Below are positions 43,407 to 44,882 of a stretch of DNA of 64,000 nt, piece by piece. The stretch is from Fodinibius sediminis (lineage in GTDB: Bacteria; Bacteroidota; Rhodothermia; Balneolales; Balneolaceae), in assembly GCF_900182555.1 (NCBI RefSeq), contig NZ_FXTH01000007.1:1-64000 (forward strand). The letters are read 5' to 3'. A model generated the notes under the pieces. It was not told the origin of the DNA. It did no database searches and was given only the letters and a program-made list of their open reading frames with translations. The position numbers were made by a program, and so were the translations under genes. Each line of letters opens with the position of its first letter. The stretch's first letter is position 1.

Positions 43407-44150
43407 TCAGAGCAAAATTTTCACTCCCCACCCTGTAATCAGTGCCAACAGTGTTGAGAGCAGCGTTCCAATGAGTACATACTCTGCAAAAGGCCGGTCG
43501 TCCTTGAAATTGCTGAAACGGGTTACACCTTTGGCGGCCAGAATGAAACCAATGGCACTGTACTGATTCAGCAGCACAAAAATGACAATGAAAATACGCT
43601 CCAGAAGGCCGATAAGCCGTCCCATGCTGTACTCTTCATTACTGACTTTATCCTCCTGTGTACCCAGAGACGCCAGCCCCATCACCTTGAGCATATAGCG
43701 CAGCACAATATTCATTTCATTGATGACCAACAGGATCCCCGCCCCCACCACCTGTATGACATTGACCGTGTCCATTGATATCCGACCATCGGGAAGGACC
43801 ATCCATGATACGAAATCTATGGTCTTTTCGGCAGACGCCCCCCCTCTGAGATCGAGCAGCGGACTGCAGAGAATAGCCGATATCACCAGCTGGTATCCCA
43901 AAGTGATCGCCCGGTTCCGGTTGAGTTTCTCCAGATTCCCCTCCATGAATTTCATCACCACCGGATAGGTAGCCAGGTGGATACCCAGCAACAGCCAGCT
44001 CCAGTTTAGCTGAAGAAACAGGAGCACAAAAAGGGGAACCACGCCAATAATAATCAGATCCTTTCCTGTGGCTCCATTATCCCGGAAGATAAGGCGAAGA
44101 CGCGCCAGCAGTGTCAAATTTACAATGGTCAGAAAAATAGCGTAATTCAT
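43407..44150 (-). CDS. DUF3307-like membrane protein paired with SatD
   Basis: A 247-residue membrane protein with about 7 hydrophobic segments. The C-terminal part (GRLIGLLERIFIVIFVLL, then GFILAAKGVTRF and FAEYVLIGTLLST) is the conserved half of DUF3307 proteins, whose function is unknown. It starts with an ATGA 4-bp overlap with the satD stop, so the two are translated together. This pairing suggests that SatD signals to, or is controlled by, a membrane partner. Nothing in the sequence shows transport activity. Confidence 0.75.
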   Translation of the reverse strand: MNYAIFLTIVNLTLLARLRLIFRDNGATGKDLIIIGVVPLFVLLFLQLNWSWLLLGIHLATYPVVMKFMEGNLEKLNRNRAITLGYQLVISAILCSPLLDLRGGASAEKTIDFVSWMVLPDGRISMDTVNVIQVVGAGILLVINEMNIVLRYMLKVMGLASLGTQEDKVSNEEYSMGRLIGLLERIFIVIFVLLNQYSAIGFILAAKGVTRFSNFKDDRPFAEYVLIGTLLSTLLALITGWGVKILL

Positions 44151-44788
44151 GCTTCTATCTGTTGATTAATAAATTCCGATATATTATCCGTCAGCTCACT
44201 GACAACCTCCAGTGCCCCGGCTTCCTTGTTCTTGTAAAATGCCGGTGATGAAATACTCAATTGGCTGGCAATTTCCTTGTAATCATGGCCCTCCTTCAGC
44301 AGGTGTAAAATAGCCAGCCGGTTCTTCTTCCACGTTTCTACCTCATGCGACAGTAGCTGCAGGCTGTTATTAATAAGCTTCAACACCGTATTCTGTTCCT
44401 CTTCAAACCGAAGATGAAACAGGAAACCGCTTTCTTTCAGCTGTTCCATCCCTTTTCGGGCTTCATGAAAAGCCGGCCCGTCCATCCCAATAGCCTGCGT
44501 GGTATTCAGAGGGGTCGCAATGGTACCTATCCCCAGGGAGAAGCGAACCCGGACCGGGTACAGTGCCGATAGAATACGGAACAGCTGTACAAAAAGCCCA
44601 TCGGCCTCCTCAAATACGGCCTGGAACTCATCACCCAGCGTGATGGTATAGGGCGAGGCCGGCGCCTGCTCCATCTGATTCAGATCATCCAGTGTTTGCT
44701 GCAAATTATCCTGCAGGGCTCCGCGCTCCTCCTCCTTGATTTCCTTCGAAGATTCAATATCTGCTATGAGTACCAATCGTCGTTTCAT
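44147..44788 (-). CDS. satD: SatD family protein with cyclase-like marks and a C-terminal HTH
   Basis: A 213-residue protein of the SatD family, named after streptococcal secretion/acid tolerance genes; biochemical function is unknown to me. The N-terminal domain carries LVLIADIESSKEI, YTITLGDEFQAVF and VRFSLGIGTIAT. The order and spacing of ADIxxS, GDEF and a basic strand resemble class III nucleotide cyclases and GGDEF domains. The C-terminal part (about 155-195) reads as a helix-turn-helix (LLKEGHDYKEIASQLSISSP). The gene is the first of a two-gene unit with the DUF3307 protein and is preceded by three regularly spaced palindromes (44810-44882). The cyclase relation is an inference from motifs only. 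Confidence 0.8.
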   Translation of the reverse strand: MKRRLVLIADIESSKEIKEEERGALQDNLQQTLDDLNQMEQAPASPYTITLGDEFQAVFEEADGLFVQLFRILSALYPVRVRFSLGIGTIATPLNTTQAIGMDGPAFHEARKGMEQLKESGFLFHLRFEEEQNTVLKLINNSLQLLSHEVETWKKNRLAILHLLKEGHDYKEIASQLSISSPAFYKNKEAGALEVVSELTDNISEFINQQIEA

Positions 44789-44809
44789 AAAAAATCCTTT
44801 TCCTATATA

Positions 44810-44882
44810 TAACTAAAATAGTTTAAATATCAAATTTTTAACCATATTGGTTATATAGTTATAATTATAACCAAAAAGGTTA
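44810..44882. promoter_or_regulatory. Three-site operator array, exact 29-bp spacing
   Basis: Three 15-bp sites of the form TAACY-N5-RGTTW lie at 44810-44824 (TAACT AAAAT AGTTT), 44839-44853 (TAACC ATATT GGTTA, perfect arms) and 44868-44882 (TAACC AAAAA GGTTA, perfect arms). Their centres (44817, 44846, 44875) are exactly 29 bp apart, just under three DNA turns. Half sites of sites 2 and 3 also form an outward palindrome, GGTTATA/TATAACC. The array lies 22-94 bp upstream of satD and in the spacer shared with the divergent UPF0182 gene. It probably binds a dimeric regulator cooperatively, perhaps SatD itself through its HTH. Confidence 0.7.

Follow-up and report, generated by a model that had tools for sequence, protein, structure and literature searches.

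The region in front of satD in Fodinibius sediminis holds three evenly spaced palindromes, which raise the questions of which gene they serve and which protein reads them. The window analyzed here is a stretch of 64,000 nucleotides (positions 1 to 64,000 of contig NZ_FXTH01000007.1, assembly GCF_900182555.1, forward strand). The name of the SatD family goes back to an acid-tolerance phenotype in Streptococcus mutans (cited in PMC11323703). The literature searched described neither a SatD operator nor DNA binding by SatD, in agreement with an earlier note on this DNA, made from the letters alone, which knew of no described operator for satD-DUF3307 pairs.

Three palindromes between satD and a UPF0182 gene

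The palindromes have the form TAACY-N5-RGTTW, with centres at 44817, 44846 and 44875, and both steps are exactly 29 bp (Table 1). The end of the array lies about 20 bp upstream of the satD ATG (44788, minus strand). The earlier note had reported these sites, and their coordinates, their arms and both 29-bp steps were reproduced. With one mismatch allowed, a single site is not rare, since 15 matches were found in the window compared with 18.9 expected, and the case therefore rests on clustering, spacing and conservation and not on the single site. TAACY-N5-RGTTA occurs at 11 places in the 4.43-Mb genome, two of which belong to this array, while the paired form AAC-N7-GTT-N16-AAC-N7-GTT has its only occurrence in that genome here.

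Table 1. Features of the satD locus, with positions in the window.
Feature	Position	Strand	Centre	Sequence	Remarks
Partner membrane protein	43407..44150	minus			247 aa; 4-bp overlap of its start with the satD stop; C-terminal core shared with DUF3307 proteins
satD	44147..44788	minus			213 aa; N-domain weakly resembling cyclases; helix-turn-helix at aa 155-186 (C-terminal); proposed autorepressor
Conserved element	44804..44813	minus		GTTATATATA	Between O1 and the satD start, overlapped by O1; near-invariant alignment columns
Operator O1 (nearest satD)	44810..44824		44817	TAACTAAAATAGTTT	One arm mismatch; kept in relatives
Operator O2	44839..44853		44846	TAACCATATTGGTTA	Both arms perfect; kept in relatives
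Operator O3 (farthest from satD)	44868..44882		44875	TAACCAAAAAGGTTA	Both arms perfect; kept in relatives

An array was present upstream of satD in nine of the ten genomes of the same genus that have this SatD, the closest named SatD proteins being those of Fodinibius roseus and F. salsisoli. The exception (genome G010, loci L018 and L118) has an ORF of 174 aa between satD and UPF0182 and no array; the second satD of that genome (L098) is preceded by a 28-bp array. Across 29 relatives, all places with the paired form were upstream of satD except two, one in Fodinibius and one in a more distant genome, and these two look like chance occurrences. The check set by the earlier note, for absence of the motif or the spacing upstream of satD orthologues in relatives, was run and found neither to be absent. 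Clustering, spacing and conservation thus support the regulator-binding array predicted from the three sites, and they are consistent with the suggestion that its occupation would be cooperative.

In Fodinibius the UPF0182 gene is divergent from satD and the array lies between the two, an arrangement from which joint control of both genes had been proposed. It is very unlikely, however, that the array is a shared control region, because UPF0182 adjoins satD only in Fodinibius and the array occurs without it elsewhere, while nine UPF0182 loci away from satD, elsewhere in the family, showed no array. Even within Fodinibius, the distance to satD is short and stable (approximately 20-45 bp), whereas that to UPF0182 amounts to 135-325 bp. 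Co-regulation of UPF0182 was therefore rejected, as the array tracks satD and not UPF0182.

Geometry of the array across the SatD family

The spacing was analyzed in 82 distinct SatD genes from Bacteroidota by a motif-free lag test, in which the 150 bp upstream of each gene were compared with themselves at shifts of 15-69 bp (55 lags) and the best self-match over 30 bp was recorded. A best lag of 29 bp was recorded for 47 of the 82 upstream regions and one of 28 bp for 16.5, together 77%, and several of the remaining regions had a best lag of double 28/29 bp. Lags of 28/29 bp were found at only 1.5% of 78 other ORF starts in the same loci, in 1.6% of the tests inside satD and in 2.8% of those in the region from -450 to -300. 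Among 31 representatives less than 50% identical to each other, the proportion with a lag of 28/29 bp was 61%.

As a second method, palindrome runs were fitted at a free period of 20-44 bp to 90 satD genes, which gave 29 bp in 54 and 28 bp in 21 of them. The fitted arrays usually consist of two to four sites of 21-22 bp, and the centre of the last site commonly falls some 17-50 bp before the start codon; for the window itself, this fit counts distances from a TTG 12 bp inside satD. A few automatic fits took a wrong dyad or period (e.g. L022, L028, L013) and were counted as program output, although 29-bp sites are visible by eye at these three loci. About 15% of the satD genes had no clear array (e.g. 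L018, L096, L101, L110, L138, L142), and at least one of these genes is explained by its position behind another gene.

Outside Bacteroidota, satD genes with an array are carried by alpha- and gammaproteobacterial and by haloarchaeal plasmids. Upstream of the haloarchaeal plasmid genes (Halorientalis, Haloplanus, Natronosalvus), GTTCGCC-type or TACAACC-N-GGTTGTA sites recur every 29 bp, and in front of satD in Agrobacterium and Sphingomonas the step is 28 bp and the sites are of the ACCC type. Vibrio lentus has three TTAGCC-N-GGCTAA sites before satD, also with a step of 28 bp, and two TGTAAC sites at this distance precede satD of Pseudoalteromonas. At two of the haloarchaeal plasmid loci (L134, L135), two pairs of 29-bp-spaced palindromes were seen, one beside the ATG and the other about 60 bp further up. 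On an Agrobacterium pAt plasmid (L136), satD lies near annotated genes for an antitoxin and a nucleotidyltransferase-HEPN protein.

No clear array was found upstream of satD in Fusobacterium vincentii (L138), where the SatD protein of about 265 aa has an apparent insertion before the helix-turn-helix and a DUF3307-like membrane protein comes next, and none was found upstream of a Segatella copri plasmid satD (L142). The latter locus encodes a SatD-like protein below Pfam detection and has a DUF3307 gene and an IS1182 transposase as neighbours. No SatD relative was detected in three scans of viral contigs, and no SatD in the phage records or in the control genomes.

Between clades the half-sites are unrelated (e.g. 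TAACC, TGTTTCA, ATATCG, GTTCGCC, ACCC, TTAGCC) and the step alone is kept; it is the geometry that is conserved and not the half-site sequence. TAACY-N5-RGTTW, though present in the window, is consequently only the local version of the motif. The conserved spacing expected by the earlier note was borne out in close relatives and in the family-wide tests, but the note had described a local array and missed a feature of the SatD family that extends across phyla and domains. The array should accordingly be seen as a rule of the whole family and not as a property of one promoter.

SatD as the likely reader of its own array

The occurrence of the array across phyla and domains with clade-specific half-sites suggests SatD itself as the candidate binder. 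The SatD of the window belongs to PF16264 over its full length (residues 5-194, E 1e-26, 94.4 bits against a curated cut-off of 29). Its C-terminus matches HTH_23 with an E of 3e-4, below the curated cut-off of that family; Sigma70_r4_2 and HTH_23 match in 7-8 of 8 SatD relatives, and a SatD profile finds solved helix-turn-helix proteins with E values of 5e-7 to 7e-5.

Genomes with two SatD proteins offer a comparison within one cell. In six such genomes in which both arrays were fitted, the distance between the two operators was 0.41-0.59, and the distance of each paralogue array to the operator of the nearest SatD relative was 0.00-0.10 for 11 of the 12 arrays and 0.23 for the twelfth. Over 61 genes, operator distance rose with recognition-helix distance when the N-domain was controlled for (partial Mantel r 0.31, permutation p 0.0005), a modest partial correlation that has to be read in light of the phylogeny shared by operator and recognition helix. 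Since the array tracks satD, the paralogue operators match those of their own orthologues and the protein has a C-terminal helix-turn-helix, SatD is the likely reader of its own array, with the caveat that the membrane partner is present nearly as constantly as SatD.

Helix-turn-helix regulators with tandem operators are common, and another regulator, either global or encoded elsewhere, could bind the array and control satD. We regard this as improbable, given that two SatD paralogues of a single genome differ in their arrays, which resemble those of the respective orthologues, that Bacteroidota, Proteobacteria and haloarchaea keep the array with no obvious common regulator but SatD, and that the paired sites were not found elsewhere in the genome. 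The attribution should hence shift from satD and UPF0182 jointly to satD alone, presumably controlled by SatD itself.

The position of the array relative to the promoter bears on the sign of this control. The conserved element overlapped by O1 is a candidate -10/-7 promoter box, and a sigma-70 scan called no promoter on the satD (minus) strand. In Fodinibius, a conserved GTTATATA stretches from the proximal site to the region before satD. A group of Bacteroidota satD genes has a -7 box TATATTTG exactly at -12 from the ATG, and this box is overlapped by the last operator wherever arrays of that group were fitted. TAnnTTTG occurs within 60 bp of the start in 22 of 90 satD genes compared with 5.5 expected. 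As operators lie over or beside a promoter box, occupation of the array should block the promoter, which makes repression the likely sign.

Taken together, these features of the DNA and the protein make it probable, in our judgment, that the array serves satD as an autoregulatory operator and mediates cooperative autorepression of the operon formed by satD and the membrane-protein gene. We infer that a SatD dimer would bind each palindrome through its C-terminal helix-turn-helix and that dimers on neighbouring sites, separated by one step of 28 or 29 bp, would touch, a contact that is suggested by the constant step. The promoter would thereby be filled cooperatively and the two-gene operon repressed. 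A step set by protein-protein contact would be kept, while the half-sites would drift with the recognition helix. What counts against this proposal is that 28-29 bp correspond to approximately 2.7 helical turns, which is not a whole number and is unusual for simple side-by-side cooperativity; successive dimers would have to wind round the DNA instead of occupying one face.

The same step of about 2.7 turns, with sites that wind round the DNA, would suit a SatD that activates the promoter or forms a nucleoprotein filament for another purpose, for example partition or copy-number control, and some satD copies are indeed on plasmids. Most copies, however, are on genome contigs without plasmid signs, and the array overlaps or adjoins the promoter box, no more than about 50 bp from the start codon, so that we consider such a role unlikely.

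Palindromes can also fold in RNA, and we asked whether those of satD might form hairpins or an attenuator in its leader. The predicted folding energy was slightly better than that of shuffled sequences (z -1.44), but 17 of 200 shuffles folded equally well or better, an unremarkable result that leaves RNA structure unsupported. An RNA role would give no reason for an exact period of 28/29 bp, and in the group with TATATTTG at -12 the array would precede or cover the promoter and be left out of the transcript. An RNA element is thus scarcely credible, and autorepression through DNA sites is the reading that we retain.

The closest known parallel is the cooperative helix-turn-helix autorepressor with tandem palindromic operators, as exemplified by CI of phage lambda at its three operators. 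As in that type, the promoter of satD carries dyad-symmetric sites at a constant step, at least two and commonly two to four of them, on which cooperative dimers would be expected. The satD array differs in that its 28-29-bp step is kept in both bacteria and archaea, with half-sites that are unrelated from one clade to the next, and SatD differs in its possibly cyclase-like sensor domain and its membrane-protein partner.

The membrane-protein partner and the SatD N-domain

A membrane-protein ORF directly follows satD in 74 of the 82 loci. The partner comes in two types, a DUF3307-type protein of 230-250 aa and a small one, about 105-115 aa long, that has about three membrane segments, and both types share the core GxxER...K...R...YxLxG(T/N), which was found near 69 of 82 satD genes and on the opposite strand in none of the 82. 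The small protein replaces the partner of about 240 aa at loci L063, L036, L071, L080, L066, L061 and L065, where the core reads GxxER...K...R...YxLxG(N). The partner in the window has no Pfam match, and the N-terminal domain of DUF3307 (PF11750) was not detected in it even at an E of 10, while PF11750 matches were obtained for the partners of Vibrio, Halorientalis and Segatella. Because 68 aa of the C-terminal part of the window's partner align at 41% identity with a protein annotated as DUF3307 (E 2e-14), and it also carries the core motif, the description of this locus as a satD-DUF3307 pair was right in substance.

The N-domain of SatD (residues 1-130, window 44402-44788) may give a clue to what the protein senses. 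A profile of 45 SatD N-domains had its best match among solved structures in the class III adenylate cyclase Ma1120 (PDB 4wp8, E 0.007); cyclase structures in this PDB search ranged from 0.007 to 0.04, and 14-3-3 proteins appeared in the same search at an E of 0.017 and worse. The alignment with Ma1120 runs through D10, G52-D53 and an R-x-x-I-x-x-G stretch. In 45 diverse SatD proteins, D10, G52 and D53 do not vary, and they correspond to the two metal-binding aspartates of class III cyclases, an Asp in strand 1 and a Gly-Asp about 43 residues further on. The SatD N-domain thus shares aligned Asp, Gly-Asp and R-x-x-I-x-x-G motifs with class III adenylate/guanylate cyclases (Ma1120; PF00211), from which it differs in being shorter, in matching marginally and in having no cyclase match in Pfam; any catalysis would be putative. 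A comparison of SatD with cyclases of relatives by hhalign was weak (probability 10%), the genome itself contains no match to the Guanylate_cyc family, and an AlphaFold model of SatD built from four sequences was too poor for use (pLDDT 43). We take cyclase ancestry of the N-domain as a lead only. If it is right, a nucleotide is the obvious candidate for an inducer, and one bound by the N-domain may, with low confidence, be the likeliest; this too is a lead.

A possible palm-domain protein beside a membrane protein recalls, by analogy, the Panoptes system (mCpol with a 2TM effector; PMC12657218, PMC12657230). The satD partner differs in having 2-8 predicted membrane segments and is not known as a 2TM effector. 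Panoptes proteins are not known as helix-turn-helix autorepressors. PADLOC gave no match for SatD and partner of the window or for a haloarchaeal pair, and only weak matches in the helix-turn-helix region for the Vibrio SatD.

A more speculative reading, which we put forward as doubtful, is that SatD and its partner form a widespread bacterial and archaeal two-gene module, in which a cyclase-fold protein that binds or makes a nucleotide restrains a harmful membrane protein. Restraint would be exerted by repression of the operon through the 28/29-bp array, perhaps together with a nucleotide signal, in a design resembling a toxin-antitoxin pair or a decoy-nucleotide defence. If true, this would explain why satD has been reported as essential yet accessory in Streptococcus pyogenes (PMC11323703).

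Autorepressor operator arrays are known; what is notable here is a geometry kept across two domains of life while the half-sites change freely. For SatD, a widespread family whose function has hardly been treated in the literature, the array suggests a concrete role as a DNA-binding autoregulator, with predicted binding sites in about 70 genes, and it links the uncharacterised family of DUF3307-type membrane proteins to a possible nucleotide-sensing repressor. The fixed spacing, the drifting half-sites and the pairs of paralogues in the same cell amount to a natural experiment on the recognition code of the helix and on why a step of 28-29 bp is kept.
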